Source: Beijerinckia sp. L45
GTDB taxonomy: Bacteria; Pseudomonadota; Alphaproteobacteria; Rhizobiales; Beijerinckiaceae
DNA: 64,000 nucleotides
Direction: 5' to 3'
Assembly: GCF_009765775.1 (NCBI RefSeq)
Contig: NZ_LMUU01000057.1
Location: 1 to 64,000, forward strand
Numbering within the stretch: position 1 is the first letter of the stretch; each line of letters opens with the position of its first letter. This document shows positions 8,458 to 45,869 of the stretch, piece after piece. The position numbers and the translations under genes are program-made. The notes under the pieces are model-generated. The model made no database searches. It was not told the DNA's origin and worked only from the letters and a program-made list of their open reading frames with translations.

Positions 8458-8928
8458 TTAATCAATCAAGTCGAGAGACCTCAGACTTATCTTCATAGCT
8501 GATTCTGAAACCTCAAATCGGCGCGCTATCGTCTCAGGCTCAATGCCAGAGGCCCACTCTCTGCGCACGAGAGGTGCGGGCATAAGGATATCCGCAGCCT
8601 TTTTGTTTGCCTGCTTCTCAAACATATCGCTCATGCTGCTTCGATACATGACGCTGTCAGTCACGCCATTTTCGATCAAATCGCGGTGCATAATGAAATG
8701 GGCGATCTCGTGCGCCAGTGTAAAACGCTGCCGATTGAAGTGGTGGGCCGAGTTTATTGTAATGGAGAATTGCGAGGGGCTTTGTCGATCCCTCGCAATC
8801 TTCCCCACTATATCACGTGGTAAATCCCGATAAAAGACAGGGATGTCTAAATCGGACGCTATAGCATCGAGGTTCACAGGAGCTTCCTGCTGGTGCCTCC
8901 AAAGAATTTCCGATGGGTTCGAGATCAT
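8458..8928 (-). CDS. ImmA/IrrE-type zinc metallopeptidase
   Basis: A 156-residue peptidase of the ImmA/IrrE family (DUF955), which cleaves partner repressors. The zinc site HEIAHFIMH lies near residue 73, and KKAADILMP supplies the third-ligand region. No XRE regulator adjoins it, unlike the second ImmA gene at 12369-13247, so its target is unclear. The ATG at 8928 is well supported by conserved N-terminal length. Confidence 0.85.
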   Translation of the reverse strand: MISNPSEILWRHQQEAPVNLDAIASDLDIPVFYRDLPRDIVGKIARDRQSPSQFSITINSAHHFNRQRFTLAHEIAHFIMHRDLIENGVTDSVMYRSSMSDMFEKQANKKAADILMPAPLVRREWASGIEPETIARRFEVSESAMKISLRSLDLID

Positions 8929-10659: not shown

Positions 10660-11055
10660 ATGGCCTACGATCAAGGAGCCACGGCGAAGGACATCTTCGA
10701 GTTGAAGCGGGCCTGCGCAGGTCCGGATAACCTGGCTGCCCGCGCCCTGATCGGGCTGGCCGCTGGCGGATTACGGCTTTCCGAGATAGGCGCGCTCAAT
10801 TCGTCCGACATCGTCAGCCAGTCCGACGAGGCTTCGGCACCGTCGGTGGTGGTGACGACCAATGGCAAGTCAAAGCAGCGCTCCATCTCGATCGGCGGAG
10901 AAGACGCTATCGCCATTCTGGCATATGACAGAGGGCTGAGATCGAATGGCGCCGTCCTTGGGTCTGCGGCCAAGATCTGGGCGGGGTTGAATGCAGGCTT
11001 TCCTTTCCACGCCTTCAGGCATGCCTTGGCCAGGCGTCTGATGGAAGCCAAGTAG
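10660..11055 (+). pseudogene. tyrosine recombinase fragment lacking the catalytic Tyr
   Basis: 131 residues that cover the middle of a tyrosine recombinase catalytic domain. The first Arg block (GGLRLSEIGAL) and the H-x-x-R block (HAFRHALARRL) are present, but the protein ends 5 residues later, before the second His and the nucleophilic Tyr. GGGAG 5 bases before the ATG suggests it is still translated. The N-terminal core-binding domain is also missing. Probably a remnant, though a dominant-negative or accessory role is possible. Confidence 0.6.
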
Positions 11056-11158: not shown

Positions 11159-12340
11159 TTGAACGCCGACGACCTGGACACGGACATCGTAGTCCATGAA
11201 GAGCCGGCTACCCTGCGCTCCTATGAACTCGACGCCCTGTCCTCGATACTCCCGCCGGACCGTCGCGATCGGATGGCGGAGGTCCTGACCGATGACGACG
11301 TCGCCACCCTCAAGCATCTAGCCAGGGAGGGAATGGGCCGCAACACTCTTCGCGCGCTCGCCTCGGACTTGAACTACCTGGAAACCTGGGCGCACGCGGC
11401 GCTTGGCAGCCCCCTGCCCTGGCCGGCTTCGGAAGGACTGGTGCTGAAATTCCTGGCCCACCACCTCTACGATGCCGCGGAACGTGAGAACGACGCCGCA
11501 CACGGCATGCCGGGGGACGTCGAGCGGCTCATGCGAGCCGACGGGTGCCTACGGATCCTCGGGCCGCATTCGCCGGCGACCGTCCGCCGGCGCCTCGCCC
11601 TCTGGTCGACCCTCCACAGGTGGCGTGGCATGGAAGGTCCGTTCACCTCGGCGAGCATCCGGGCCGCGGTCCGCCTCGCCGTACGCGCTTCGAACCGCCC
11701 GCGAATGCGCAAGAGCCAGAACGCGGTGACGCGCGACGTCCTGGATCTGCTGCTCGCGGCGTGCCCAAGCAATTCGAACGCGGACCTGCGCGATCGCGCC
11801 CTGCTCCTCGTGGCTTTCGCTTCGGGTGGCCGCCGCCGCTCCGAGGTCGCGAGGCTGAGGGTGGAAGACCTGATCGACCGGGCGCCGGTGTCGGCTGAGC
11901 CCGGCAATGCCGATGCCGCCACCACCCTGCCCTGCCTGGCGATCCACTTAGGGAGAACGAAGACCGCAGGCGCGGAACAAGACGAGCGGGTCATCCTGAT
12001 CGGCCGGGCGGTGTCCGCCCTCAAGACATGGATCGCGCTTGCGCCGATCCGGAACGGTCCCGTCTTCAGGGCGGTCGACCGGTTCGATCGCGTCGGCGGC
12101 AAGGCGTTGGATGCCCAGAGCGTCAACGTGATCCTGAAGAAACGCTGCCGTGTCGCGGGGCTCGACCCGACGCTGTTTTCCGCCCACGGTCTGCGCTCGG
12201 GCTATCTCACGGAGGCGGCTCGGCAGGGCGTGCCGATACAAGAAGCGATGCGGCAGTCGCGCCACCGTTCGGTGCAGCAGGCGGCGGATTACTACAATGA
12301 GGCAGACGTGGAACGTGGCCGGTCCGCCAGGCTCGGCTGA
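11159..12340 (+). CDS. tyrosine recombinase/integrase
   Basis: A complete 393-residue integrase. The N-terminal core-binding domain spans about residues 40-185. The catalytic residues are all visible: Arg in GGRRRSEVARL, His-x-x-Arg in SAHGLRSG, His in SRHRS and Tyr in AADYYN. It follows the recombinase fragment by about 100 bases. TTG at 11159 is the only start with a plausible upstream AAGGAA. It may have mobilised the neighbouring Ubl operon, but no attachment repeats were found. Confidence 0.85.
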   Translation: MNADDLDTDIVVHEEPATLRSYELDALSSILPPDRRDRMAEVLTDDDVATLKHLAREGMGRNTLRALASDLNYLETWAHAALGSPLPWPASEGLVLKFLAHHLYDAAERENDAAHGMPGDVERLMRADGCLRILGPHSPATVRRRLALWSTLHRWRGMEGPFTSASIRAAVRLAVRASNRPRMRKSQNAVTRDVLDLLLAACPSNSNADLRDRALLLVAFASGGRRRSEVARLRVEDLIDRAPVSAEPGNADAATTLPCLAIHLGRTKTAGAEQDERVILIGRAVSALKTWIALAPIRNGPVFRAVDRFDRVGGKALDAQSVNVILKKRCRVAGLDPTLFSAHGLRSGYLTEAARQGVPIQEAMRQSRHRSVQQAADYYNEADVERGRSARLG

Positions 12341-12368: not shown

Positions 12369-13247
12369 TCAGCGACGGAAACGCGGCGTCCAGCAGTCCT
12401 CGACGTCCTCGTCCAGCTCGGCGTCATCGTCGGCGAAGGTGCTCGTGGTGATGACGGTCAGGGCCTTGCCATAGGGGCCGAGGCCGAGGACCTCCTCCTC
12501 CATTGCGACTTTCCTGCAGCCGAACCAATCCCGCAGATCGCCGTCCTCTTGTGCCCGGTGCCCTTCCGTAACGTTGGCGGCGTTGCGAACGAAGCGCTCC
12601 GTGGCGACGCCGCCTGGCAGAAGTTCGCCCTTGCGCGGCCATGTCATCGATCCGAACTCCTGCATCGTCTTCGACATGAAGCAGAAGTCCAGGCGGCCGC
12701 CGGTGCTGAGTACGACGGCGGCCGGGACCGACGTCCGTTGAGCGTAGCGGATCGCGGTCGCGACCAAGGAGGTTTCGCAGAGGCGGCTCATCGCTTCGAC
12801 CGCCGCAAGGCCCTCGCCCACCTTCCTTAACGCGGCGTCGAAGAGGAAGTCCGGCATCAGCAGCGCGGCTGCAAAGTGATCCGCCTCGGCCTCGTATATA
12901 TCCGACGAGGTGAACCCCGCGTGGGACGCGTGGACGTCGCCGCCCGCGAAGATGTGCTCCGGATGGCCGGGAAGCAGGTAGTGGCCGAGTTCATGGGCGA
13001 TGCTGAAGTTCTGGAAGCCCACGCTCCTGATGTGAGTGGCGTAGCAGATGCAGAACGCATCGCCGTGGCGAAGCAGCATCCCCGATACGCCCGCGGCGGC
13101 GTCGGACTTCGCCTGCACGAGGATGTCGAGGCTTTCTGCGATCTCCTTGGGGCGCACCGGAAGCGACACGATGCCGTTCTCGCGGGCCCACTTCTCGGCG
13201 ACCAGGCCGGCGAACAACGGATTCCGTCGGGCGCCGGTCTTCGACAT
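12369..13247 (-). CDS. ImmA/IrrE-type metallopeptidase, partner of the XRE repressor
   Basis: A 292-residue peptidase with the zinc motif HELGHYLLPGH near residue 85 and EAEADHFAAALLMP as third-ligand helix, followed by a C-terminal domain of about 130 residues without recognised fold. Its ATG overlaps the stop of the upstream XRE gene by one base (ATGA), a strict translational coupling. In ICEBs1-like systems the ImmA partner cuts the XRE repressor to induce the element. By analogy this pair should control the divergent Ubl operon (inference). Confidence 0.88.
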   Translation of the reverse strand: MSKTGARRNPLFAGLVAEKWARENGIVSLPVRPKEIAESLDILVQAKSDAAAGVSGMLLRHGDAFCICYATHIRSVGFQNFSIAHELGHYLLPGHPEHIFAGGDVHASHAGFTSSDIYEAEADHFAAALLMPDFLFDAALRKVGEGLAAVEAMSRLCETSLVATAIRYAQRTSVPAAVVLSTGGRLDFCFMSKTMQEFGSMTWPRKGELLPGGVATERFVRNAANVTEGHRAQEDGDLRDWFGCRKVAMEEEVLGLGPYGKALTVITTSTFADDDAELDEDVEDCWTPRFRR

Positions 13248-13579
13248 CAGCCGTCCTTCTTCCGGTTCTTTTCCGCCAGGAGCTGGAAGATGCCCTCGGC
13301 AAGCTTGCGATCCTCCGCGCTCATCAACTGGCCATGCCGATAGAGCGGGTCCGCCGACGTGCTGACATCCGGGGTCTCGGCGAGCCCGAGCAGGAAGTCC
13401 GTCGTCACCTCAAGCGCGCGGGCCAAGCGGCGGAGGTTGTCGAAGGAGGGCTTCCGCGCCCCCGCTTCGAAGTGGGAGATCGAAGTCGGAGGGAGGCCAG
13501 ACAGTGTCGCGGCCTCGCCCTGGCTGAGCTTGCGGAGCTCGCGCGCCTTCTTGAGGCGCTCCGGGAATACGTCAGACAA
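13247..13579 (-). CDS. XRE-family transcriptional repressor
   Basis: 110 residues with an N-terminal helix-turn-helix (RLKKARELRKLSQGEAATLS, SISHFEAGARKPSFDNLRRL) and a charged C-terminal tail that may be the ImmA cleavage region. It is read divergently from the ubiquitin-like operon across a 138-base gap holding an imperfect palindrome at 13611-13630. It is the first gene of a two-gene unit with the ImmA peptidase. Confidence 0.88.
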   Translation of the reverse strand: MSDVFPERLKKARELRKLSQGEAATLSGLPPTSISHFEAGARKPSFDNLRRLARALEVTTDFLLGLAETPDVSTSADPLYRHGQLMSAEDRKLAEGIFQLLAEKNRKKDG

Positions 13580-13610
13580 GCATGTGCTTCCACCATTATC
13601 GACATGATGA

Positions 13611-13640
13611 ACTTGACGAAGTCGACAAGTCTCTTATATG
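13611..13640 (+). promoter_or_regulatory. Ubl-operon promoter with overlapping operator
   Basis: TTGACG (13613-13618), 16-base spacer, TATATG (13635-13640) form a sigma70-like promoter toward the Ubl gene. A 20-base imperfect palindrome (13611-13630, arms ACTTGaCGA and TCGaCAAGT) covers the -35 box and spacer. This is the expected position for repression by the divergent XRE protein. Binding is inferred. Confidence 0.5.
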
Positions 13641-13717
13641 TAGAACGCGCCATGTCCGAGATGGCGAATCCGACATGTAGATGCCTGGGGCGGACTCGGC
13701 CGTCAAGGAGAAATATG

Positions 13718-14098
13718 ATGGACGAGCACCATGAGCATCGCGGCAGCATCGTCGCGGAAGAGACGACCGTCAAGGACACGATCATCGTCGAGGACGGTGA
13801 GATCATCGAGGAGGTGATCGACGTCGAGGAATGGATCCTCGCCAAGAGGACGATCCACCGCCGCGCGAAGCGGTTCCTGATCAAGGTCGACAAGCACAAG
13901 CATGTCTTCGAGACGTCGCATGCGACCGGGCGCGAGATCCTCGACAAGGCCGGCAAGATGCCCGTCGAGAAGTACATCCTGCGGCAGGTCCACAAGGATG
14001 GCGGTCTCTCCAAGATCGAGCTCGACCAGAGCGTCGACTTCGTCCTCCACGGCATCGAGAAGTTCAAGACGATGCTCAAGACGGCGCAGGACGGCTAG
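13718..14098 (+). CDS. ubiquitin-like modifier (Multiubiquitin family), single domain
   Basis: 126 residues. Residues 1-48 form an acidic leader, and residues about 50-120 match the prokaryotic Multiubiquitin domain (KRFLIKVDKHKHVF, KYILRQVHKDGG, SVDFVLHGIEKF). Only one domain is seen, whereas many relatives have several in tandem. The chain ends AQDG, not the GlyGly of ubiquitin. AAGGAG (13705-13710) lies 7 bases before ATG 13718 and 4 before ATG 13715, so 13718 is preferred. It is the first gene of a four-gene operon with E2-like, E1-JAB and DUF6527-like genes. Likely the conjugated modifier. Confidence 0.85.
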   Translation: MDEHHEHRGSIVAEETTVKDTIIVEDGEIIEEVIDVEEWILAKRTIHRRAKRFLIKVDKHKHVFETSHATGREILDKAGKMPVEKYILRQVHKDGGLSKIELDQSVDFVLHGIEKFKTMLKTAQDG

Positions 14099-14100
14099 CC

Positions 14101-14520
14101 GTGACCGCCCTGCCCGCCCTACGCCGGCATTTCAGGCTGCCCGAAGACGACGAGACGTTCCTCGACGGCTTCGGACAGCCTTGGGAGGCGATCGTCGAAG
14201 GCTCTGCGCGCTGGTTGATCCTTCGCGGCCTTGTTCTTCCGGCAGGCTACCTGCAGCAGGTCGTCGATGTCGCCTTCATGATTACGCCGATGTATCCGCC
14301 GGGCGAACTCGACATGGCTTACGTGCACCCGTGGATGGTTCGCTCCGACGGGCAGCCGATCCCGCAGACACAGATCCCGCAGATGATCGAAGGCCGCTCC
14401 TGGCAGCGCTGGTCGCGCCATAGGGCGCCGGCCAATCCGTGGCTTCCGGGAGAGGACGATCTCGCCAGCCACATTCATTATGCGCAGTCCTGGTTCGCAG
14501 CCGAATTCGAGAGGCGCTGA
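14101..14520 (+). CDS. prokaryotic E2-like protein without cysteine
   Basis: 139 residues resembling the prokaryotic E2 'family E' proteins coded beside Multiubiquitin genes. It has LPAGYLQQVVDVAFMITPMY followed by PPGELDMAYVHPWM, which is the E2 beta-sheet and the YPP turn. There is no cysteine anywhere, so thioester chemistry is impossible. The block EGRSWQRWSRHR lies where the E2 active site should be and offers serines. GTG start is 2 bases after the upstream stop, so translation is coupled. Family assignment is good; the chemistry is inferred. Confidence 0.78.
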   Translation: MTALPALRRHFRLPEDDETFLDGFGQPWEAIVEGSARWLILRGLVLPAGYLQQVVDVAFMITPMYPPGELDMAYVHPWMVRSDGQPIPQTQIPQMIEGRSWQRWSRHRAPANPWLPGEDDLASHIHYAQSWFAAEFERR

Positions 14521-14522
14521 AC

Positions 14523-15935
14523 ATGCACACCACGCTCAGCCTTACAGGCTTCCAACACGCGGCACTTCGCGAACACCTCCTTCCGCCGGACGGCTTCGAA
14601 GCGGTAGCGATCGCCCTCTGCGGTCGACGCGCCGGCGCCGAGAGGCACCGTCTCGTCGCGCGCGCCGTCCATCTCGTCCCGCATGCCGACTGCACCGAGC
14701 GGTCGGTCGACACGGTGGCTTGGCCGACCGACATCATGGTGCCCTGGCTCCAGGAGGCCGACCGCCGCGGCCTCAGCGTGGTGAAGATCCACTCGCATCG
14801 GGACGGCCTCGCACACTTCTCGACCATGGACGACGAGACCGACGCCGCCCTCTTTCCCTGCGTCTGTTCGTGGATCGATGCCGACGTCCCGCACGCCAGC
14901 GTCGTCCTGCTGCCTGACGGCCGCATGTTCGGCAGGGCCGTGAAGGCGGACGGCATCTTCGAACCGATAGAAACGATCATGGTCGTCGGCGATGACCTGG
15001 AGATATGGCACGAGGACGAATTCACCCCGACAGAAACCAAGGCGGCGTTGCCGGAATTTACCAGGCGCCACGCTCAAGCCTTCGGCGACCGCACGACGCG
15101 ACGTCTTCGGCGGATGTCAGCCGCCGTCATCGGATGCTCAGGCACAGGAAGCATCGTCATCGAGCAGCTGGTCCGGCTCGGGATCGGACGCCTCGTCATC
15201 GTCGACGACGACATCGTGAAAAGCCTGAACCTCAACCGCATCCTCAACGCGACCCAGGCAGACGCAGAGGCTGAGATCCTCAAGGTCGACATGACCAGCG
15301 ACGCCATCGCGCGGGTAGGGCTCGGCACGGAGGTCGAGCGGTTCGCCACCAACCTCGCCGACGCCGATGCGGTGCGTGCTGTCGCCGGGTGCGACGTCGT
15401 CTTCGGTTGCGTCGACACGGCGGAAGGGCGGTTCATGGCCAACCTCCTGGCGACCTACTACGTGCTTCCATACATCGACGTCGGTGTCGCGTTGGACGCC
15501 GACGAGACGGGCGCTATCACGCAGGTATGCGGCTATGTTCACTATCTCCAACCGGGCGCATCCAGCCTTCTGAGCCGAGGCGCGATCACGATGGCGGAGG
15601 TCACGGCGGAAGCGCTAAAAAGGCAAAACCCTGAACAGTACACCGAACGCAAGAAGGCTGGTTACATCCAGAACGTCCAAGAGGACCGCCCGGCCGTGAT
15701 CAGCGTCAATGCCGTCCTGGCCGGCATGGCCGTAAACGAGCTGCTCGCCCGGCTCCATGGGTTCCGCGACGAACCGAACGGGTGCTACGGCACCATCGGC
15801 ATGAGCATCAGCCAGGTCGCCTTCTATCCCGAGGCGGAGACGGGCACGCCATGCAAGATACTAGCGCGCCACGTTGGCAGGGGCGACATCGTCCCGCTTC
15901 TCGAGCAGGCGGAGTTGAGCGAGGTGGCAGCATGA
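14523..15935 (+). CDS. JAB-E1 fusion: ubiquitin-like activating enzyme with N-terminal JAB peptidase
   Basis: 470 residues. The N-terminal JAB/MPN domain has Glu26 and the zinc motif H90-S-H92-x7-S100-x2-D103, complete for an isopeptidase. The E1/ThiF domain has the nucleotide loop GCSGTGS (204-210), IVDDD (226-230), NLNR (236-239) and FGCVDTAEGR (294-303). In many relatives the crossover segment reads P-x-x-C-x-x-C; here it is PGASSLLSRG (344-353), with serines instead. It should adenylate the Ubl C-terminus and may trim it with the JAB domain. The start follows the E2-like stop by 2 bases. Confidence 0.9.
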   Translation: MHTTLSLTGFQHAALREHLLPPDGFEAVAIALCGRRAGAERHRLVARAVHLVPHADCTERSVDTVAWPTDIMVPWLQEADRRGLSVVKIHSHRDGLAHFSTMDDETDAALFPCVCSWIDADVPHASVVLLPDGRMFGRAVKADGIFEPIETIMVVGDDLEIWHEDEFTPTETKAALPEFTRRHAQAFGDRTTRRLRRMSAAVIGCSGTGSIVIEQLVRLGIGRLVIVDDDIVKSLNLNRILNATQADAEAEILKVDMTSDAIARVGLGTEVERFATNLADADAVRAVAGCDVVFGCVDTAEGRFMANLLATYYVLPYIDVGVALDADETGAITQVCGYVHYLQPGASSLLSRGAITMAEVTAEALKRQNPEQYTERKKAGYIQNVQEDRPAVISVNAVLAGMAVNELLARLHGFRDEPNGCYGTIGMSISQVAFYPEAETGTPCKILARHVGRGDIVPLLEQAELSEVAA

Positions 15936-16306
15936 CGGCTCCCAAAGAAATCCTTCAGACCGTCCGGTCGACAGCCTCGCGATGGCTGGTCGGGCTATGG
16001 GGCCGCCTCCCTTGGGGCCGAAAGCGTTACCGCGTCTCGAAGGTCAACGATCTGCCAGAGAGGCTGCGTCCGGGCATGCTCTATGTCGTTGTGGAAGGCA
16101 AGGTTGAGATCCAGGCGACCATGGCCTGCCCCCGGGGACGTTGCAGCTCGCCGCTGAACCTGAATCTCATGCCTGACGATCACCCGATGTGGACCCTTCA
16201 ACGCCACAATCACGGGCTGCCGTCCTTAGCTCCCTCCGTCTGGAGAAAACACGATTGTGGGTGCCATTTCTGGCTTCGACGCGGAGAAGTCGTATGGTGC
16301 GACTAG
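15932..16306 (+). CDS. DUF6527-like protein, last gene of the Ubl operon
   Basis: 124 residues, ATG overlapping the E1 stop (ATGA). Short basic N-terminus, then LRPGMLYVVVEGKVE. A Cys-rich part follows with CPRGRCSSPLNL and, near the end, HDCGCHFWLRRGEVVWC. It matches DUF6527-type proteins of bacterial Ubl operons (from memory). The cysteines could bind one zinc. Ser in RCSSP and His in CGCHFW could form a Ser-His pair, as described for a protease family in 'Bub' operons. That role is inference. Confidence 0.68.
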   Translation: MTAPKEILQTVRSTASRWLVGLWGRLPWGRKRYRVSKVNDLPERLRPGMLYVVVEGKVEIQATMACPRGRCSSPLNLNLMPDDHPMWTLQRHNHGLPSLAPSVWRKHDCGCHFWLRRGEVVWCD

Positions 16307-16355: not shown

Positions 16356-16371
16356 GTTAGCCGCGGCTAAC
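16356..16371. promoter_or_regulatory. parS centromere site 1 (repABC type)
   Basis: Perfect 16-base palindrome GTTAGCCGCGGCTAAC, fitting the repABC parS pattern GTT-N4-GC-N4-AAC bound by RepB. It lies 220 bases before repA. Confidence 0.85.
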
Positions 16372-16386
16372 TCTTGTGCAATCCGG

Positions 16387-16402
16387 GTTAGCCGCGGCTA
16401 AC
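16387..16402. promoter_or_regulatory. parS centromere site 2 (repABC type)
   Basis: An identical copy of the 16-base palindrome, 31 bases (three helical turns) after the first, so both lie on the same face of the DNA. Downstream, GTTAA (16464-16468) and TTAAC (16476-16480) form a further small inverted repeat near the repA promoter that RepA could bind. Confidence 0.85.
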
Positions 16403-16590: not shown

Positions 16591-17805
16591 ATGGCGCAGA
16601 TACCTACGCAAACACAGTCTGCGCCTTCGCAGGAGCTTCGTGCTCTTGTACAGAGGCACGGTGATGAGCTTTCGGCACAACTGCAAGCCCACCATCGGAG
16701 CATCTTCCCGCCAGAGGCGGAGAAAACCATACGGCGGTTCTCGCCTGCGGAGGCCGCCAAGCTCATCGGCATAGCTGAAGGTTATCTGAGGCAGGTGGCG
16801 TCGGAAGGCAGGGGACCTTCACCGTCGACTACAAACGGCCGCCGATCCTATTCGGTCGAGGACATCCACGAACTGCGGAAGATCCTCGACCAGGGGGCAC
16901 GGGGCGGGCGTCGGTACCTGCCGCACCGAACAGGGTCGGAGCACCTCCAGGTCCTGACGGTGATGAACTTCAAGGGCGGGTCCGGGAAGACGACGACATC
17001 CGCCCATCTCGCGCAGTATCTCGCGCTGCATGGATACCGGGTCCTGGCGATCGACCTTGATCCCCAAGCGAGCCTGTCGGCACTGTTCGGCCATCAGCCC
17101 GAACTCGACGTCGGCCCGAACGAGACGCTCTACGGCGCAATCCGATACGACGACAAGCGCCGGCCCATCGCCGAAGTCGTGCGCGCGACCTACATCCCGG
17201 ACCTTCACATCGTTCCGGGAAACCTGGAGCTCATGGAGTTTGAGCACGACACGCCTCGCGCGCTTCTGCGCAAGGCTCCGGGCGACACTCTTTTCTTCGC
17301 GCGGGTGGGGCAGGCGATCGCCCAGGCCCAGAACCTCTACGACGTGGTCGTGATCGACTGCCCGCCGCAGCTCGGCTACCTGACACTTTCCGCACTCACG
17401 GCTGCGACTTCGGTCCTCGTGACGATCCATCCGCAGATGCTCGACGTCATGAGCATGTCCCAGTTCCTCATGATGACCGGCGATCTGCTCGACGAGGTGG
17501 CCAAAGCCGGCGCATCGACCACCTACGACTTTATGAAGTACGTCATCACGCGGTTCGAGCCGTCCGATGGGCCGCAGAACCAGATGGTCGCATTCCTCCG
17601 GTCGATCTTCGCCGAACACGTGCTGATCCACCCGATGCTCAAGAGCACGGCGATCTCTGACGCCGGGATCACGAACCAGACGCTTTTCGAGGTCGACCGC
17701 CACCAGTTCACCCGGGCCACTTACGATCGTGCCTTGGAATCCATGAACAACGTGAACGCCGAGATCGAAGGCTTCATTCGCAAGGCCTGGGGGAGGGCAG
17801 AATGA
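16591..17805 (+). CDS. repA: RepA partition ATPase (ParA type)
   Basis: 404 residues. Residues about 45-95 form a MerR-like/RepA DNA-binding region (FSPAEAAKLIGIAEGYLRQV, GRRSYSVEDIHELR). The ParA ATPase has the deviant Walker A FKGGSGKTTTS near residue 130, A' motif IDLDPQASL and VVIDCPPQLGY. It partitions the replicon with RepB and represses its own operon. Its last codons overlap the repB start (ATGA). Full length and intact. Confidence 0.96.
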   Translation: MAQIPTQTQSAPSQELRALVQRHGDELSAQLQAHHRSIFPPEAEKTIRRFSPAEAAKLIGIAEGYLRQVASEGRGPSPSTTNGRRSYSVEDIHELRKILDQGARGGRRYLPHRTGSEHLQVLTVMNFKGGSGKTTTSAHLAQYLALHGYRVLAIDLDPQASLSALFGHQPELDVGPNETLYGAIRYDDKRRPIAEVVRATYIPDLHIVPGNLELMEFEHDTPRALLRKAPGDTLFFARVGQAIAQAQNLYDVVVIDCPPQLGYLTLSALTAATSVLVTIHPQMLDVMSMSQFLMMTGDLLDEVAKAGASTTYDFMKYVITRFEPSDGPQNQMVAFLRSIFAEHVLIHPMLKSTAISDAGITNQTLFEVDRHQFTRATYDRALESMNNVNAEIEGFIRKAWGRAE

Positions 17806-18833
17806 GCCGCAAGCATTTCCCGAACCTCGGCCAGGCCCCTCTCGTCGCAGAACGAGAAGCGGGAGCACCGCGCGCCTCCCGCATGCACATGAGGCCGATC
17901 CTGGGCGCCGCGGACCTCGTCGAGGACGCGGAAGCAAAGCCTGTCGGTGTGATCGGGCAATCCCTCGCCGCCGCCGACGAGCGGTCGCGCCGCGCGGGGG
18001 ACATCGAGCGCCAACTGTCGGAAGGACAGGCGGTCGTCGAGCTCGATCCCGCGATGATCGATCCCTCGTTCATCAGCGATCGCATGCCCTCGGCGGCCGG
18101 CGTGCAGGCGACGTTGCTGGATGCGATCCGCGACCATGGTCAGCAGGTTCCGATCCTGGTCCGGCCGCACCCGGAGGCCGAGGGCCGATATCAGGTCGCC
18201 TACGGGCATCGGCGCCTCAAGGCGGTGAAGGAGCTTGGCCTCCGGGCCCGGGCCGTCGTGCGCATCATGAGCGACGAGGAGCTGGCCGTCGCGCAAGGCC
18301 AGGAGAACAACGAGAGGCAGGACCTTTCATACATCGAGAAGGCACGTTTCGCGCAGCGACTGGAGCAGCGGTTCGGACGCGCGACGGTGCTCGCCGCCTT
18401 GTCGCTGTACAAAGGCGACCTCTCGTACATGCTCTCGGTGGTGTCGCGGATCCCGGCAACGCTCATCGATGCCATCGGTCCCGCGCCATCCTCGGGAAGG
18501 AGAGGGTGGATCGAGCTTGCGGACCTCATCGCGAAGAAAGGCGCGCTCGCTTCGGCGGAGGAGGCGGCCAGCGATGCTGGCTTCGACGCGCTCGCCAGTG
18601 ACGAGAGGCTGAAGCGTGTCCTCTCCGCAGCGAAGGTCTCAGGACCGCCAGCGGGCAACGGGACCAAGTGGACCGACGCACATGGTCGGACCCTCGCCAC
18701 CATCACGACCACCGCTACCAAGGTCTCGCTGACCGTCGACAAGAAGACCGCGCCGGATTTTGCGGCTTTCGTCGTCGACCGGCTGCAGGCGCTCTACCAG
18801 GAATTCGAAGCCGGCGAACGCCGCCGGCGTTGA
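17802..18833 (+). CDS. repB: RepB centromere-binding partition protein (ParB type)
   Basis: 343 residues. The ParB N-terminal domain has DHGQQVPILVRPHP and YGHRRLKAVKELG (ParB CTPase/nuclease-like motifs), followed by a helix-turn-helix region (LSYMLSVVSRIPATL). It binds the two parS palindromes upstream of repA. Its ATG overlaps the repA stop. The gene ends 185 bases before repC; that gap holds the ctRNA. Confidence 0.95.
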   Translation: MSRKHFPNLGQAPLVAEREAGAPRASRMHMRPILGAADLVEDAEAKPVGVIGQSLAAADERSRRAGDIERQLSEGQAVVELDPAMIDPSFISDRMPSAAGVQATLLDAIRDHGQQVPILVRPHPEAEGRYQVAYGHRRLKAVKELGLRARAVVRIMSDEELAVAQGQENNERQDLSYIEKARFAQRLEQRFGRATVLAALSLYKGDLSYMLSVVSRIPATLIDAIGPAPSSGRRGWIELADLIAKKGALASAEEAASDAGFDALASDERLKRVLSAAKVSGPPAGNGTKWTDAHGRTLATITTTATKVSLTVDKKTAPDFAAFVVDRLQALYQEFEAGERRRR

Positions 18834-18882
18834 TGGCGTACGCGTAACCTTCAATCGATCAACGAGGAGCATGCAGGCAAAG

Positions 18883-18915
18883 AAAAAGGCCCCCGAAGCT
18901 GACGCCCCGGAAGCC
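18883..18915 (-). terminator. ctRNA terminator built with G-U pairs
   Basis: On the minus strand GGCTTCCGGGGC, loop GTCA, GCTTCGGGGGCC, then TTTTT. All 12 pairs form if G-U wobbles are allowed (four of them). On the opposite strand those four pairs become A-C mismatches, so the hairpin is strand-specific. Confidence 0.8.
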
Positions 18916-18930
18916 CTCTCTTAGTGTGAC
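18883..18930 (-). ncRNA. counter-transcribed RNA of repABC (incompatibility RNA)
   Basis: A small antisense RNA of about 48 nt between repB and repC, as in all well-studied repABC plasmids, where it lowers repC expression and sets incompatibility. On the minus strand a promoter TTGACT (18960-18965), 17-base spacer and GATTCT (18937-18942) would start RNA near 18930. It ends in a strong terminator at 18883-18915. Promoter and terminator are both seen directly; the regulatory role follows from the family. Confidence 0.85.
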
Positions 18931-18936
18931 AACGAG

Positions 18937-18965
18937 AGAATCCCACTTCCGCGAATCATAGTCAA
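18937..18965 (-). promoter_or_regulatory. ctRNA promoter
   Basis: Minus-strand -35 TTGACT and -10 GATTCT, spaced by exactly 17 bases, directed away from repC and toward repB. It is the strongest sigma70-like promoter I found in the rep region. Confidence 0.8.
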
Positions 18966-19017
18966 GTCCAGCGCCACTTCAGCGACCGCCTTTCTTCGCC
19001 TCGAACGAGGTCAAGAC

Positions 19018-20229
19018 ATGGACATCCATCAGCCGTCGACGACGCCCTTCGGGCGGCGATCCTTCACGCTCGCCATGGTGGCGAGCCAGACGACCGCGAA
19101 AGAGTGCCCGCCGGGAGCAGCCGTCCACAAGTGGGAGGTCTTCCGTGCGATCTGCGAGGGCAAGGATGCTGTCGGGGTCTCCGAACGCGCCCTATCGGTC
19201 CTCAACGCGTTACTGACATTCCACCCGGATACAGTGCTGACGGGTGCCGACGAACTCGTCGTGTTCCCCTCCAACCAGCAGCTCGCGCTCAGAGCCCATG
19301 GCATGGCCGCGGCGACGCTGCGCCGCCACATCGGGACGCTGGTGGACAGCGGCGTCATCATCAGACGCGACAGTCCCAACGGCAAGCGCTACGCCCGCAA
19401 GGGGCAGGGCGGGGCGATCGAGAAGGCGTTCGGCTTCGACCTGAAGCCGCTGGTCGCCAGAGCCGCGGAATACATGCTCTACGCCGAGGAGGTGAGGGCG
19501 GAACGCAGGGCGCTGACGATGGCCCGCGAACGCATGACGCTCCGCCGACGCGACATCACCAAGATGATCACCGCGGGCATGGAGGAGGGCGTTCCATGCG
19601 ACTGGCCCCACATGCTGACCGTTTACCGGGGCATCGCCGCGCGCATTCCCAGATCAGCCTCCCGTACCGAGATCGAACCACTGATCGAGGAGCTGGATCT
19701 GCTTGCAGCGGAGATCCTCATCGTGTTGGAAACACATGTAGAAAAGAAGAAAAGAAGCGGCAGTGAGTCCCATTCCGAGCGCCACATACAGAATTCAAAA
19801 ACAGAAGCTTCCATTGAATCTGAGCCACGCTTTACGAAAAGCAGGGGCGAGGGGGAGGTGAACCGGCAGGCTTTGAAGACCGGCGTGAGATCGTTTCCAT
19901 TGTCGATGGTGCTTGATGCCTGTCCGACCATCGTCGACTACGCCAAGGGGGGCGAGATCAGCAACTGGCGCGACATGGTGGCTACAGCGGGGTTCGTGCG
20001 GTCGATGCTCGGGATCAGCCCGTCCGCATGGGACCAGGCGCAGGAGGCGTTCGGAGCGGAAGACGCGGCGACAGTCATCGCTGCGATCCTGGAGCGGAGC
20101 GATGCGATCAAGAGCCCGGGTGGCTACCTGCGGGGACTGACGGACAAACAGGCGGTCGGACAGTTCTCGGTCGGGCCGATGCTGATGGCGCTGCTGAGGG
20201 GCCGGTCGGCGTCGAGGCTGCGCGCATGA
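19018..20229 (+). CDS. repC: RepC replication initiator
   Basis: 403 residues, the initiator of repABC replicons, acting in cis at an origin inside its own gene. The N-terminal winged-helix domain has PSNQQLALRAHGMAAATLRR and SGVIIRRDSPNGKRYARK; the C-terminal domain ends LRGRSASRLRA. An AT-rich stretch lies in the middle. Full length, ATG at 19018. Confidence 0.95.
   Translation: MDIHQPSTTPFGRRSFTLAMVASQTTAKECPPGAAVHKWEVFRAICEGKDAVGVSERALSVLNALLTFHPDTVLTGADELVVFPSNQQLALRAHGMAAATLRRHIGTLVDSGVIIRRDSPNGKRYARKGQGGAIEKAFGFDLKPLVARAAEYMLYAEEVRAERRALTMARERMTLRRRDITKMITAGMEEGVPCDWPHMLTVYRGIAARIPRSASRTEIEPLIEELDLLAAEILIVLETHVEKKKRSGSESHSERHIQNSKTEASIESEPRFTKSRGEGEVNRQALKTGVRSFPLSMVLDACPTIVDYAKGGEISNWRDMVATAGFVRSMLGISPSAWDQAQEAFGAEDAATVIAAILERSDAIKSPGGYLRGLTDKQAVGQFSVGPMLMALLRGRSASRLRA
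19730..19860. other. probable replication origin (oriV) inside repC
   Basis: Within repC the composition shifts to A-rich runs (AAAAGAAGAAAAGAAG, AATTCAAAAACAGAAG) against a GC-rich background. In known repABC plasmids the origin is an AT-rich stretch in the central part of repC. Position is inferred from that rule and the local composition. Confidence 0.6.
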
Positions 20230-20314: not shown

Positions 20315-22558
20315 TTACCGCCACTGCGGTCGCAACGCTTCATCCTGCCCATCAAAATCTGCGCGGGCCGCCTCCGGCAGATCCTTGAGCTCGCCGATGA
20401 GGATGGTCTCTGGATTACCCATCTGCGCGTAGCGGATGGTGTCGGAGAACGGCACCGCGGCGTGCACGCGCCTGGTCAACGTCTCGACGTCGCAGGTGCC
20501 GCGCTTCTGCAGCTCCTCGCCGAACCACCGGATCCAACCCGTGCCGGCGCGCCCCGCCATGTACATCGCGTACGGCGCGAGCTCCTCCCAAACCTCCGGG
20601 GTCATCAGATCGCCGGCTCGACCGCAGGGAGACAGCGCGTCGCTCACGAACTGCATGCGCAGCATCCCACCGGCGATCTCGCTCCAGCGAACCACGCGGC
20701 CGTAGGCCCCGACCGCCGCGGGGAGGTAACGTGCAATCCGAAGGAGTAGACGGGCGATGAAGATCGCGCCCGGTGCGCCTCCGATAGGCAGCGTCGTCGC
20801 GAGGACCGTCCTCGCACCGAGAGCCAGAAAGGCGGAAGCCGTCGTGTAGGCTGACCGGCCCGCCGCATGCGTGTCGCAGGCGCTCAGCACGATGATGGGC
20901 GGCACGCGCACCCGCCCTCGCAGCCGTCGGACGTCGACATCAAGATCAGCGATCCGAAGCATCCCGTCGGCGCCCTCGGGGTGTACGCCGTGACCGTCGA
21001 AGATCATCAGAGGACCGTCGTAGGTGTTCAGCGCGCGCATGAACTGCGACGCGTCCGTCACCGTTTCATGTCGAAGGACGAGGGCATCCTCCAGCTGGGG
21101 AGCCATCACCCCGATGGCTTTTCGCAGGATAGGTGCCAGCCTGTCCTGCGGACTGAAGGCGCTCACCAGCAGGAGCTCGTTGAAGTCCTCGATCCGAAGA
21201 CGCAGCGGCTCGTGCTCAAGCAGCTGGATCATCGTGACGTCGCCCGGCGTCGCGGCTATCCGCGACACGTCGCTCTCCAGGCATAGAGGCAGGCCGTTCA
21301 CCGGTAGCCACTCGAGCGGTGCATCGGTGACCAGCTTCACCCCATAGGGCGCTTCGGCGATCCGCGTGAGGAAGCGTTCACCCACTGCGTCCGTCAGCAT
21401 CTGCTGGATTTCGCCGAACATGCCCGCGATCTTGGCCGGTAGCGTCCGCGCGCCGGATCGGATGTTCTCGGCCAGGACCGAGACCCTGGCGGCCACGAGA
21501 TTGATCGAGGGCTGAAGCCGGAGGGTGGAGGCGAGCGAACCGGCGGTACGGGTGCCGATGGCGGCCGCGAAGAGGGCGGTTTCCGCGTTGCGCATCGACG
21601 CTAGGGATTGGGCCAATCCGGAGCGCCCATACCGCTCGATCTCGGCCGGCGGGCGAGCCGGATTGTAGCTACGCTGCCGTTCTATACGGCGGAAGAGCTC
21701 CTCGGCGGCTCGCCGCTCGTCCGCGCCGACGGCGTCGAGCGGCACGTGGGCCTTGAAGCCGGGCATCATGGAGGGTGCTACCAGCCATAGGTCCGGACGC
21801 GGCGGAAGAAACCGGATCGCAGGTCCGATCTCCGCCTGTGCCCGCAAGGCGTCTATCTCAGCGACACCCTCCAGCATGGCATCGACAAAGGCTGCTGGGT
21901 CCCGGCTCGTCCAGTCCGGCACTTCCTCGCCGAGCGTCATGCCAGCCGACATCAACGTCATCTGGTTGGGTAGCAGCGAATAATGTCCGAGACGTCTAAT
22001 CCCGCCCGTCTGGCCGGAGCGCTCCGACCACCGTTCGACGATAGGCCCTAGCTCGGCGAGCGGAGAATGCGCCTCGACCAGCGCGAGGACATGCTCGCGC
22101 AGGCGCATGACGGAAAGATCGCCGAGGTTGATCGCGCCCTCGGTGTCCAGAAGGGAGACGTGGAGGGGCCGGTAGAGCTGGCGCGCCTGGAAACGGCGGA
22201 TCGATACGGCGGCGTCCTCGGTCGCCGAGAACAACGTCCAAATCGGCATCGAGGCGGGAATGTCGATGCCATCAAGGGATTCGGCCGAGAGCGGACGGAT
22301 GCGCCACCCGGAGAGGCCGGTCGCCCGAGCACCTAGCAGGTCCGGCAAGGGGATAACCGGGTCCATAAGCGTCGCCGGCAGCCGCACGATCGATTCGAGA
22401 GCTCTGCGATGCAGAATGAGGGCTTCAGGAAAACGTTGGAAGAGGCTGATACGTCGGTCCGCACCCGGGGGCAGAACGAGACCGTAGACGAGTCGCGGAT
22501 CAATCAAAGGATGGGTGCCGCCGCCCGCCGCCCCAGTAGGAACGCCATCCTTCGTCAT
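20315..22558 (-). CDS. CHAT-domain cysteine protease
   Basis: 747 residues. The C-terminal third is a CHAT (caspase-like) peptidase: catalytic His in IFDGHGVHPEG (about residue 522), catalytic Cys in LSACDTHAAG (about 560), and the family block AFLALGARTVLATTLPI. The N-terminal 450 residues show no TPR repeats or other known fold and may be the sensor part. It lies 200 bases after the DUF2235 gene on the same strand, likely one operon. CHAT proteases act in bacterial suicide defence such as Craspase and gasdermin systems. No gasdermin is seen here. The target is unknown. Confidence 0.85.
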   Translation of the reverse strand: MTKDGVPTGAAGGGTHPLIDPRLVYGLVLPPGADRRISLFQRFPEALILHRRALESIVRLPATLMDPVIPLPDLLGARATGLSGWRIRPLSAESLDGIDIPASMPIWTLFSATEDAAVSIRRFQARQLYRPLHVSLLDTEGAINLGDLSVMRLREHVLALVEAHSPLAELGPIVERWSERSGQTGGIRRLGHYSLLPNQMTLMSAGMTLGEEVPDWTSRDPAAFVDAMLEGVAEIDALRAQAEIGPAIRFLPPRPDLWLVAPSMMPGFKAHVPLDAVGADERRAAEELFRRIERQRSYNPARPPAEIERYGRSGLAQSLASMRNAETALFAAAIGTRTAGSLASTLRLQPSINLVAARVSVLAENIRSGARTLPAKIAGMFGEIQQMLTDAVGERFLTRIAEAPYGVKLVTDAPLEWLPVNGLPLCLESDVSRIAATPGDVTMIQLLEHEPLRLRIEDFNELLLVSAFSPQDRLAPILRKAIGVMAPQLEDALVLRHETVTDASQFMRALNTYDGPLMIFDGHGVHPEGADGMLRIADLDVDVRRLRGRVRVPPIIVLSACDTHAAGRSAYTTASAFLALGARTVLATTLPIGGAPGAIFIARLLLRIARYLPAAVGAYGRVVRWSEIAGGMLRMQFVSDALSPCGRAGDLMTPEVWEELAPYAMYMAGRAGTGWIRWFGEELQKRGTCDVETLTRRVHAAVPFSDTIRYAQMGNPETILIGELKDLPEAARADFDGQDEALRPQWR

Positions 22559-22758
22559 GGAGTTCTTTCCCCGGCCGTGGCGACCGGCACCACATGGCGA
22601 CCATACAGGCCCGTCCCGCACATCGCGACCGTGTTGCCGCCGACACACGCCGTTCTCGTCTTGCGGGCTCTTGCCTGGGCTCCCGCGCCGGACCCTGCGC
22701 AAGCGCGTCCGCGGACGACACATGGCATTGCCGGCCGCTATGGCAGGCTGGCCATGTC

Positions 22759-23961
22759 CTAGGGTTGACCCGAGGGCGCGACAGCGAGCGACGCCGTCGG
22801 TCCATCCTGCCGCTCATCGAAGAAGCCTGACGCTCGAGCATGATTGCGCAGAGTCGCCGGCCTGTACTTTCCATAGCTCGTGAAGTTCCTGACTTCAGAA
22901 AGGGCCAAGCGTTCGTAGACCGACGCGTGAAGGTCGGCGTCGACGGGTACGTCACGGTCCGCCGGATACCAGCGTAGCGGCGTGCCGCCCATGCCGACCA
23001 TAAGCTCGTCGTGCATCATGCCGTCGGCCGAGGGATGGAGATGAAGAAACCGATCGTCGATCTGGATGCGACCTTCGACCGGCAGGCCTTCGGCGATGAA
23101 ATCGGCCATCCACTTCAACGAGATGTCCGAGAGGCGGGACTCCTGTTCCGGGTAGCTGCCACCTATGTCGGAATGGTCGCCCGCAAACCAGACCTGCTCG
23201 AAAGGCTCGGGCTCGCCGGGCTGCCTCAGGCGGATGGTCCGGCCCCACGGGACGCGAGCGAAGTCCTTGCGATATTCATCGATTGCCATCGCATGGCGGA
23301 CGAACATCACGTCGCGGGGAAGATGACGGTCATAGCCAGCCTTGACGAAGCGCTCGATGCCGATCGCAGCGACGGTATCCCAGACCCCGATGAAGTAGGG
23401 GACGACGCCTCGACCCGTCTCGCAACCATACCTGCGCCGGAAGGCGTCAGCCGTCGCCGCGCGCTCGTCGGATGGCGGCAGCTCGAGGCCGAACCGGAAC
23501 AGGATGGCGGCCGCCTCCTTGGCGATCCTGCGCAGGTCCGTAGGTGCGAAGCTGAGAGCTTCGCCACCGGCTTGCCGCGTCGGGATGCCGACGATCTCAA
23601 GGAGGTGCGCGACGCAGCGGGCCGTGTACGCGCCGCGGCTGAAGCCGAAGAGATAGACGCTATCGCCGGGCCGCCAGGAGCTGACCACCGCGAGGTAGCA
23701 ATCGATGATCTTGCCGGTGATGCCCCCGCCCAGCATCTTATCGGCGGTCTCCCGGATGGTGCGCCACGTCCCGGTGTGGCCGACGATCGGCGTACCGATC
23801 CCCGCGACGTAGAAGGCGATCTGCCGAGCCGGGTCGATGGTCGATTCCGGATCGTTACGGGTCGCCCGGTAGAGCTTGTAGACATTGGTGCGGCTTTCGT
23901 CCGGCAGCAGGCCGCCCTCGTTGCCGGTGCCGTCGGCCAAGACGAGAATTCTTTTGGGCAT
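22759..23961 (-). CDS. DUF2235 alpha/beta-hydrolase (Tle1-like phospholipase fold)
   Basis: 400 residues. DUF2235 proteins share the fold of Tle1 phospholipase effectors. It starts MPKRILVLADGTGNEGG (oxyanion region), has the nucleophile elbow GFSRGAYTAR near residue 108, an Asp in WFAGDHSDIGGSYPE and a catalytic-type His late in the chain (LHPSADGMMHDEL). No signal peptide or T6SS neighbours are present, so it likely acts in the cytoplasm. AGGAG 9 bases upstream fixes the start at 23961. First gene of the unit with the CHAT protease, divergent from the WYL regulator. Confidence 0.85.
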   Translation of the reverse strand: MPKRILVLADGTGNEGGLLPDESRTNVYKLYRATRNDPESTIDPARQIAFYVAGIGTPIVGHTGTWRTIRETADKMLGGGITGKIIDCYLAVVSSWRPGDSVYLFGFSRGAYTARCVAHLLEIVGIPTRQAGGEALSFAPTDLRRIAKEAAAILFRFGLELPPSDERAATADAFRRRYGCETGRGVVPYFIGVWDTVAAIGIERFVKAGYDRHLPRDVMFVRHAMAIDEYRKDFARVPWGRTIRLRQPGEPEPFEQVWFAGDHSDIGGSYPEQESRLSDISLKWMADFIAEGLPVEGRIQIDDRFLHLHPSADGMMHDELMVGMGGTPLRWYPADRDVPVDADLHASVYERLALSEVRNFTSYGKYRPATLRNHARASGFFDERQDGPTASLAVAPSGQP

Positions 23962-24073
23962 CCGAAAAGCTCCTGAAATCAGCGGGCGAAAAATCCCCTG
24001 CTCAAAGAAGCGAGCGCTCCTTGCGACACAGGTCGACTTGACGTCCAGCGTCGTGTAGGCCAACCAGACACGA

Positions 24074-24114
24074 CCATATCAGAAATATATGGATCTAAAA
24101 AATATACCCGTCAA
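24074..24114 (-). promoter_or_regulatory. promoter and operator of the DUF2235-CHAT operon
   Basis: On the minus strand TTGACG (24109-24114), 17-base spacer, CATATA (24086-24091). An inverted repeat CCATAT-N7-ATATGG (24074-24092) covers the -10 box and the start of transcription. A repressor bound there would block the operon. The divergent WYL protein is the obvious candidate (inference). Confidence 0.6.
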
Positions 24115-24132
24115 GATACTATAGGGACTTGC

Positions 24133-25044
24133 ATGGCTGATGACGAACGACGCCCGTGGATGCAGAACCGCCGGCTAGAGTTCATCGAGTGGAAGCTGTA
24201 CTGGGATGGCGCGCTGAACCGGAGCGACCTGGAGAATACGTTCTCCATCTCGACGCCGCAGGCATCAGTCGACATTAGGCAGTACCGCGAGATCGCCGGC
24301 GACAACATCTCCTACAACGCGACGGAGAAGGCGTTCTTGCCGGCGCCGGGGATCAAACCGCGGTTCCTCACCGTCTCTGCCGACCGGCTGCTCATCCAGC
24401 TCCGGGCCTGGCTGACGGGTGCCCTACCGCGGCGCGACTTGTGGTTCAAGGCCATGCCCTCGATCGACATGGCGCCGGATCTCGCGCGCCATGTCGATCC
24501 CGATTGTCTTCGCCTCGTCCTCCAGGCCATGGCGAAGCGGGAGGTCCTCGAGGTCCGCTACCAGTCCCTCACCAACGACCGCTGGCGGGAGATCGCTCCC
24601 CATGCCCTCGCATTCGACGGCTACCGCTGGCATGTTCGGGCATGGGCCTGCGACCGCGACGACTTCAGGGACTTCGTGCTGACCCGGATCGTCGAGATCA
24701 AAGCCGGCGCGGCCGCGGTCTTCGATCCTGACGACGACATCGAGTGGAAGACCAAGACCAAGCTCCTGCTGGCCCCGCATCACGGCCTGAACGAACAGCA
24801 GAGCCTCGCCATCCAACGTGACTTCAACATGATCGACGGTCGCCTCGAGGTCGAGGTGCGGCTGTCCATGGCGTACTACTTCATCATGCGGATGAACCTC
24901 GACCTGGACCTCAAACCGTCGCGCGCGCAGATATGCCTCGAGAACCTCCAGCAGGTGCAGTCCGCGATCGAAGAGGCCAAGGAAGAATCCTGCCGGCGCA
25001 TCGCATCTCGAAAGGCTGCCTCAGGACCGGCGTCGAAGGCCTGA
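24133..25044 (+). CDS. WYL-domain transcriptional regulator (CapW/BrxR-like)
   Basis: 303 residues: N-terminal winged helix (FIEWKLYWDGALNRSDLENT, followed by SISTPQASVDIRQY), a WYL domain (about residues 130-205; EVRYQSLTNDRWREIAPHAL, GYRWHVRAWA) and a WCX-like C-terminus. This layout is that of CapW and BrxR, repressors that hold CBASS, BREX and other defence operons silent until infection. It is divergent from the DUF2235-CHAT unit with 171 bases between starts. The ligand is unknown. Confidence 0.87.
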   Translation: MADDERRPWMQNRRLEFIEWKLYWDGALNRSDLENTFSISTPQASVDIRQYREIAGDNISYNATEKAFLPAPGIKPRFLTVSADRLLIQLRAWLTGALPRRDLWFKAMPSIDMAPDLARHVDPDCLRLVLQAMAKREVLEVRYQSLTNDRWREIAPHALAFDGYRWHVRAWACDRDDFRDFVLTRIVEIKAGAAAVFDPDDDIEWKTKTKLLLAPHHGLNEQQSLAIQRDFNMIDGRLEVEVRLSMAYYFIMRMNLDLDLKPSRAQICLENLQQVQSAIEEAKEESCRRIASRKAASGPASKA

Positions 25045-26149: not shown

Positions 26150-26200
26150 CAGCTACCCCAAGAGACGACGAACGAGGACCTGTACGGCACGGAGAGCGCG

Positions 26201-37693: not shown

Positions 37694-37714
37694 ATCTTCG
37701 ACACACCGCAATGG

Positions 37715-45500: not shown

Positions 45501-45869
45501 CGCGACAAGGCCGTCGGCGTAGGCGACGATGTCGGACCAGTCGAGCCGGCACTTGGCCTTTCCGCCGCGCTTCTTGCCGAGCGACAGCAGACGGCAGAGG
45601 CGGGCGTAGGCCGGCCTGTCCATCGGATAGACCAGAATGGACGTGCCATCGTCGAGGTCGAGGCGGCAGCCGACGATCAGCGCGACGCTGGTCTCCTTGG
45701 CCGCCTGGTGGGCGCGCACGATGCCGGCGACGCTGTTGCGGTCGACCACCGCCAGCGCCTGGATTTCGAGCACCGCTGCAGCGGCGAACAGCTCCTCGCA
45801 GGAGCTTGCGCCGCGCAGGAACGAGAAGTGCGACGTGACCTGAAGCTCGGCGTAACGCGCGGCGCTCAT
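42600..45869 (-). CDS. dnaE2: error-prone DNA polymerase DnaE2 (ImuC)
   Basis: 1089 residues, full length for the family; the polymerase of the SOS mutasome. PHP domain at the N-terminus ([16 protein letters not shown]), polymerase core with [29 protein letters not shown], and an OB domain near the end. Odd point: between about 45492 and 45375 (roughly 39 residues of the PHP domain) the protein is out of frame and reads [18 protein letters not shown]. The expected sequence ([31 protein letters not shown]) lies in another frame, so a one-base loss and a one-base gain compensate. Translation is coupled to imuB (ATGA overlap). Confidence 0.93.

Follow-up and report, generated by a model that had tools for sequence, protein, structure and literature searches.

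A Bub-type ubiquitin-like conjugation operon and its neighbouring CapH-CapP pair in Beijerinckia sp. L45

The stretch of DNA analyzed here, 64,000 nucleotides of Beijerinckia sp. L45 (the window), carries at 12369-16306 six open reading frames (ORFs), all of them intact and none interrupted, which comprise a four-gene ubiquitin-like (Ubl) conjugation operon of the Bub type and, divergent from it, the genes for an XRE-family repressor and an ImmA-like peptidase. The arrangement had been described in an earlier note made from the letters alone, and its coordinates proved exact, as did the spacing of +2, +2 and -4 bases between bubA, bubB, bubCD and bubE. Pfam matches for all six genes exceed the curated cut-offs, and PADLOC names the divergent pair CapH and CapP. 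The assignment to the Bub type is likewise borne out, since Citrobacter-labelled BubCD, BubB and BubA chains are among the Protein Data Bank (PDB) matches.

On the plus strand, bubA (13715..14098; start at the ATG at 13715 or 13718, with AGGAG upstream) encodes a 127-residue protein with a single ubiquitin-like (Multi_ubiq) domain (Pfam, 3e-9) and a final glycine, Gly127; a search of the whole genome for Multi_ubiq returned this copy only. It is followed by bubB (14101..14520, GTG start), encoding a 139-residue E2-like protein (Prok-E2_E, 2e-33) that matches Citrobacter BubB (PDB 9eae, 2e-25), with a W-S-R-H motif in both. Next come bubCD (14523..15935), whose 470-residue product joins a JAB (JAMM) peptidase and a ThiF/E1-like adenylation domain in one chain (ThiF 3e-28; Prok-JAB 2e-6; Citrobacter BubCD, PDB 9ea4, 2e-76), and bubE (15932..16306), which encodes a 124-residue DUF6527 protein (7e-17). 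The operon accordingly shows the features of Bub systems, namely a glycine-ended Ubl protein, an E2-like protein related to BubB, a fused E1 and JAB protein and a DUF6527 protein as the fourth gene.

On the minus strand, capH (13247..13579, TTG start) encodes a 110-residue XRE-family helix-turn-helix (HTH) repressor (HTH_3 1e-15; PADLOC capH 5e-24) and capP (12369..13247) a 292-residue ImmA/IrrE-like (M78) metallopeptidase (Pfam Peptidase_M78 6e-13; PADLOC capP 2e-56; PDB 7t5t CapP 5e-9), the stop of the former and the start of the latter sharing one base (TGATG). The names capH and capP are the best PADLOC matches for the pair, which has the XRE HTH, the HExxH M78 peptidase and the divergent orientation from bubA that mark CapH+CapP. 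Between capH and bubA lies a divergent intergenic region of 135 bp (13580..13714), the expected place of the promoters and of a CapH operator. Outside the operon, 50-96 bases past BubE, are two copies of GTTAGCCGCGGCTAAC (16356..16402, plus strand), which by pattern match resemble the parS sites of repABC plasmids; the label rests on what we take to be the parS consensus. The pattern GTTNNNNGCNNNNAAC has three matches in the window, two of them at 16356..16402, and 3 of 100 shuffles reach three. Next on the same strand are the replication and partition genes repA, repB and repC (16591..20229; RepA AAA_31 5e-34, RepB 4e-16, RP-C 1.5e-66). Because the parS-like sites and the three genes, the features of a repABC plasmid, lie directly downstream, this copy of the operon is placed on such a plasmid, in agreement with the earlier reading of it as plasmid-borne.

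Conserved gene order and active-site residues

Relatives were collected by scanning named genomes with a BubCD alignment, and the best 80 of 420 were kept; as these were ranked by likeness to the window, the sample leans to close kin. Residue conservation was read from the window together with 90 relatives, of which 79 are genome loci, ten come from plasmid records and one from a viral contig. For structure prediction, 49 BubE and 45 BubA relatives were aligned, out of 80 admissible ones in each case. The gene order is conserved, with BubA and BubB directly upstream of BubCD in 79 of the 80 relatives each and BubE directly downstream in 79; the exceptions are L091, truncated by its contig, and L080, in which only about 350 bases of contig remain past BubCD. 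BubA and BubB share one open frame in 29 of the 80 genome relatives. Over the 91 rows, BubA is fused to BubB in 38 and has a separate frame in 53, of which 43 end exactly on EG or DG and ten continue with further residues. The E2_E family is rare: 12 genomes among 297 of the order have it, as do 9 among 398 of the phylum, six of these 9 above the cut-off (both counts include the window's own genome). A BubCD relative occurs in 171 of 72,556 plasmid records (121 cover at least 80% of its length) and once among viral contigs; the relative L040 sits on a record titled chromosome, i.e. outside plasmids.

In BubA, Gly127 is invariant (91/91 rows). In the PDB the family profile matches multi-ubiquitin proteins (3e-19) and Citrobacter BubA (1.5e-9). 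An AlphaFold2 model built from 46 rows (mean predicted local distance difference test score (pLDDT) 82, predicted template modelling score 0.67) shows the strands and helix of a beta-grasp fold, as the earlier note had led us to expect; the first 30 residues are poorly modelled, and an N-terminal extension of about 50 residues before the Ubl domain has low confidence. In a Foldseek comparison with the PDB the top matches are bacterial multi-ubiquitin proteins (2e-5 to 5e-4), and Citrobacter BubA in complex with BubCD (9ea8_B) ranks 9th (7e-4). Superantigen-like, PI3K and FERM chains score comparably (E 5e-4 and weaker); taken by itself, the structural match is therefore less specific than that by profile.

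The BubB residues W104, S105, R106 and H107 are each present in 91 of 91 rows, and the WSRH motif is found in all 79 genome relatives. The BubB of the window contains no cysteine, and 37 of the 79 genome relatives lack one in the matched domain. The earlier description of this protein as E2-like therefore stands as far as kinship with the solved BubB is concerned, but it cannot work by the chemistry of a classical E2, since there is no cysteine. The conserved candidate nucleophile is the invariant serine, which may be the natural replacement for the absent E2 cysteine; given a BubB without cysteine, an ester linkage of BubA to Ser105 is probable. Ye et al. reportedly found that Bub conjugation proceeds via ester-type chemistry.

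The JAMM motif of BubCD, HSHRDGLAHFSTMD, starts at residue 90. H90, H92, S100 and D103 are each kept in 92 of 92 rows, and D103 aligns with the aspartate that was mutated in the solved D104A structure. As E1 nucleophile, C296 and S206 were considered and set aside, both being present in 92 of 92 rows but located in parts read as nucleotide-binding; the serine of PAVIS was also discarded, as it is not invariant (Q in L014).

For BubE, AlphaFold2 predicts a small beta protein (mean pLDDT 85; block means 92-97 over residues 31-120). C66, P101, S102, C109 and H112 are found in 90 of 90 rows and C71 in 89, and a Cys3-His zinc site is probable. Matches by phmmer to a reductase (E 0.007) and a sulfotransferase (0.33) were dismissed as chance. 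DUF6527 was not mentioned in the literature searched.

The CapH-CapP pair and other regulators upstream of Bub operons

CapP has its HExxH motif at residues 85-89 and E119 as a candidate third ligand; in an alignment of the window with 39 relatives, H85 and E119 are kept in 39 of 40 sequences and E86 and H89 in all 40. CapH and CapP both lie upstream of the Bub genes within 3.5 kb in 39 of the 80 relatives, divergent from them in 38 and on the operon strand in L088. Counting for each side only those loci whose sequence extends more than 3.5 kb there, the complete pair occurs upstream in 36 of 70 loci and downstream in 0 of 68; at least one member occurs in 49 of 70 and 3 of 68, respectively. 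A BubCD tree was made from 91 rows, L091 being left out because it is cut by its contig. Closest to the window, at 64% identity, is the row of L024, a genome of the Caulobacteraceae that also has CapH+CapP. The presence of the pair requires 17 changes on this tree, at least ten of them forced by well-supported branches, against a mean of 30.6 after shuffling, and none of 500 shuffles came as low as 17. The pair is thus clustered on the BubCD tree, yet has been gained or lost many times.

Of the 544 Bub operons counted in the available portion of PMC13373217, 219 have CapW or CapH+CapP and 59 have CapK+CapS. CapH+CapP next to a Bub operon is a known and common pairing, and the earlier supposition that XRE-ImmA control is unusual for these operons fails, because the pair is present in 39 of our 80 relatives and is included in the published count of 219. 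The locus alone adds nothing surprising on regulation.

Other regulators are found in the same place. A gene for an extracytoplasmic-function (ECF)-like sigma factor lies upstream of the Bub genes in 21 of the 80 relatives, none of which has CapH+CapP, and L040 is a 22nd locus, with its sigma-like gene elsewhere in the locus; the sigma assignment is weak (Sigma70_r2 in 4 of the 13 members aligned, out of 26). In 15 of the 21 loci a gene for a protein of about 450 residues accompanies the sigma-like gene, the two lying divergent from Bub in place of CapH+CapP (e.g. L031:2853-5282, minus strand); in five the cluster includes an M78 peptidase (L061, L082, L089, L095 and L101), and in L054 neither is present. 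The protein of about 450 residues could be aligned for 11 of 16 loci, and all 11 members keep T2, D18, K30, K37 and a GGPxDVA stretch, numbered from a conserved M-T before which L068 and L096 carry extra residues as translated. The pattern resembles that of the catalytic residues in proteasome beta subunits, which conserve T1, D17 and K33. In the PDB the best rows for this family are proteasome beta subunits at a weak E of 0.11, Pfam Proteasome is found in one of the 11 members at a weak 0.02, and there is no proteasome among the six NCBIfam families listed. The family is not specific to Bub operons, as it occurs in 8 of 297 genomes of the order, only one of which (G158) also has E2_E, on another contig. 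Many new proteasome homologues are described in PMC8665760, which states in the portion available that they showed no telling genomic context, and the word proteasome is absent from the main text of PMC13373217.

The relatives suggest that the regulators of Bub operons have been swapped repeatedly. It is conceivable, although we propose it only tentatively, that several protease-based switches, CapH-CapP among them, are interchangeable at these operons. Should a protease free either a CapH-repressed promoter or a held sigma factor, a family of proteolytic damage sensors would have Ubl tagging as its output, and one of its branches would use a proteasome homologue.

Several further arrangements were seen upstream of Bub genes. 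CapH-like and CapP-like domains occur in one open frame in 11 of the 80 relatives (L025, L035, L041, L046, L048, L050, L051, L055, L058, L097 and L102). A protein of about 210 residues, read as GNAT-like and with no Pfam match, lies between CapH and BubA in L024 (4166-5014, minus strand), L038, L057, L084 and L085, and in L024 and L038 a protein of about 71 residues, read as ribbon-helix-helix-like, stands beside it. In L026 (156-5024, minus strand) a sigma-70-like gene, a 221-residue protein and a 1149-residue fusion of an M78 peptidase with a UvrD helicase are found upstream of Bub, and long CapP-like frames of 1128-1158 residues in L063, L067 and L081 look similar. A gene for a protein of about 394 residues, read as an ATPase, and a subtilase gene lie directly upstream of Bub in L044 (1775-5198, plus strand; Peptidase_S8 match for the subtilase), and also in L074, L076 and L080.

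Proposed mechanism and possible roles

We consider it very probable that the locus is a complete Bub operon, carried by a repABC plasmid and controlled by CapH+CapP, and propose that it works as follows. CapH would repress the divergent promoters until single-stranded DNA (ssDNA), building up through DNA damage, phage attack or incoming DNA, activates CapP, which would then cut CapH and free transcription. According to the available portions of PMC13373217 and PMC10904395, binding of ssDNA activates CapP and CapH is then cleaved; by analogy, release of expression by CapP cutting CapH is most likely here too, and it is most likely the divergent pair that makes this an inducible copy, as the earlier note proposed. 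With ATP, the E1-like (ThiF) half of BubCD would activate BubA at its C-terminal Gly127. BubB would then take over BubA, probably through an ester bond at Ser105, and from there BubA would be joined to target proteins. The JAB half would remove BubA from its targets and, where BubA and BubB form one chain, would probably also separate the two. BubE is probably a zinc-binding adaptor or an E3-like helper. The analysis itself establishes the genes, their conserved order, the kinship of BubA, BubB, BubCD and CapP with solved proteins and the integrity of the catalytic motifs; for ssDNA sensing, CapH cleavage and the conjugation chemistry we infer the steps from published relatives.

A number of observations weigh against this account. 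The pair is incomplete in several relatives, with a CapP-like gene alone in 11 and a CapH-like gene alone in 3 of the 80, and neither gene is found upstream in 23 of the 80 despite at least 2.5 kb of sequence, nor in 4 with less. Within 13580-13714 three imperfect palindromes (8/9 positions) were seen; no operator is claimed, because 57 of 200 dinucleotide shuffles score equally. A scan of the intergenic region for sigma-70-like promoters found none, against a shuffled mean of 0.6. The BubA C-terminus of the window, KTAQDG, differs from the common LPLDQTEG, and no Ser, Thr or Cys in the expected BubCD loop stands out over 92 rows as the E1 nucleophile. The first cysteine pair of the window's BubE (CPRGRC) has one extra residue and is without the intervening cysteine of 85 of 90 rows. 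As for a fold relative of BubE, nothing in the PDB matched its profile with E up to 10, Foldseek listed 124 matches within that limit, none of them at 0.001 or better, and the best VIA-align Z is 2.6; these results neither establish a new fold nor rule out known folds. Finally, protection against phage by Bub is described as undemonstrated in the available portion of PMC13373217.

Several neighbouring genes bear on the setting of the operon. Across repABC from it (20315-22723, minus strand) is a gene for an 802-residue CHAT-domain protein that matches PADLOC BovA of the Borvo system (8e-164); a literature search on Borvo/BovA gave nothing relevant among the matches listed. Beyond capP are tyrosine recombinase-like genes, one above the Pfam cut-off (11159-12340) and one just below it (10660-11055). 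The BovA-like gene and the recombinase-like genes fit a mobile or defence neighbourhood. Elsewhere in the window, a gene for a DnaE-type polymerase III alpha subunit adjoins that for an ImuB-like Y-family polymerase (42600-47416, minus strand), perhaps as a mutagenesis cassette, and genes for a UvrD helicase-PDDEXK nuclease and for another PDDEXK protein stand in tandem (31737-37711, minus strand) and may be AddAB-like or defence-related. A Tle1-like phospholipase gene (minus strand) and a WYL-domain regulator gene (plus strand) form a pair at 22759-25044, beside a gene for an integrase-like protein of 750 residues (25370-27622). A second small ImmA/IrrE-like ORF of 156 residues with an HEIAH motif (8458-8928, minus strand) was spotted by eye.

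Possibly, although we do not favour this view, the operon serves the response to DNA damage or stress in general rather than phage defence, with CapH-CapP triggering tagging after any damage, whether caused by phage or not. A stress-response role for Bub is raised in the same portion of PMC13373217 that calls the anti-phage effect undemonstrated, and the ImuB-like and DnaE-type polymerases are other damage-linked genes in the window; the sparse distribution of E2_E and the mobile-element settings, on the other hand, seem to resemble those of defence genes, and the BovA-like defence gene is 4 kb away. Unlikely in our view is a module for plasmid keeping (addiction), in which tagging is harmful unless reversed by the JAB half, so that loss of the plasmid is punished. 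The operon does immediately adjoin the parS-like sites and repABC, and Iyer et al. 2006 (PMC1779556), in the portion available, speculate on addiction or protection against invasive replicons. However, in BubCD conjugation and removal are fused in a single polypeptide, at odds with a toxin and an antitoxin of separate lifetimes, and relatives such as L040 on its chromosome-titled record also occur outside plasmids. XRE-ImmA pairs also control integrative elements and the recombinase-like genes lie just beyond the pair, but that CapH-CapP is a leftover repressor and anti-repressor of a phage-like or integrative element, merely adjoining the operon, is very improbable given its upstream and mostly divergent position in the relatives (39 and 38 of 80), its absence downstream (0/68), its clustering on the BubCD tree (17 changes versus 30.6) and the PADLOC matches to capH and capP.

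Few bacterial systems come closer to ubiquitin conjugation than the Bub pathways, whose targets are, to our knowledge, not settled. The complete CapH+CapP-linked operon described here, small and uninterrupted, has bubA and bubB as separate genes and a single Ubl domain, and is therefore convenient for conjugation tests without a maturation step. In 79 of 80 relatives BubE is a companion of the operon.

Comparison with known systems

Two other systems were considered and rejected. In Bil (ISG15-like) systems the E2 has a catalytic cysteine, and E1 and JAB are encoded by different genes; BubB of the window has no cysteine, and JAB and ThiF form one chain. CBASS (cyclic oligonucleotide-based antiphage signalling system) type II (Cap2/Cap3) comprises a CD-NTase gene, an E1-E2 fusion and a JAB protein; among the six genes Pfam finds no nucleotidyltransferase, and E1 and E2 have a gene each.

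Both the kind of operon and the kind of neighbouring switch have already been described, and the locus is a further example. The Bub system of Citrobacter (PDB 9ea4, 9eae, 9ea8 and 9eav; Ye et al. 2026) is akin to it by sequence in BubCD and BubB, and by profile and fold in the BubA domain. In a plasmid relative from Citrobacter koseri (L021) BubA and BubB form one chain, whereas the window has separate genes and a single Ubl domain. Upstream, genes for an ATP-binding and a DNA-binding protein, read as CapK+CapS, stand in L021 in place of the window's CapH+CapP.

The layout was described in 2006 by Iyer, Burroughs and Aravind as operon class 6e (row 6e of PMC1779556, as far as available), with a polyUbl protein, a cysteine-less E2/RWD-like domain, a JAB-E1 fusion and a Cys/His metal-binding protein. 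As a rule that class has two to three Ubl domains, with one solo case, while the window has one domain; its E2-like protein was called inactive for want of a cysteine, whereas BubB of the window has the invariant serine. The portion of that account available to us names no XRE-ImmA pair, which the window has. With the CapH+CapP pairs that regulate immune operons (Lau et al. 2022, via the available portions of PMC13373217 and PMC10904395) the pair of the window shares the HTH, the M78 peptidase, the intact HExxH and the match to 7t5t. It controls CBASS in the known case and would control Bub here, an association already counted in PMC13373217.

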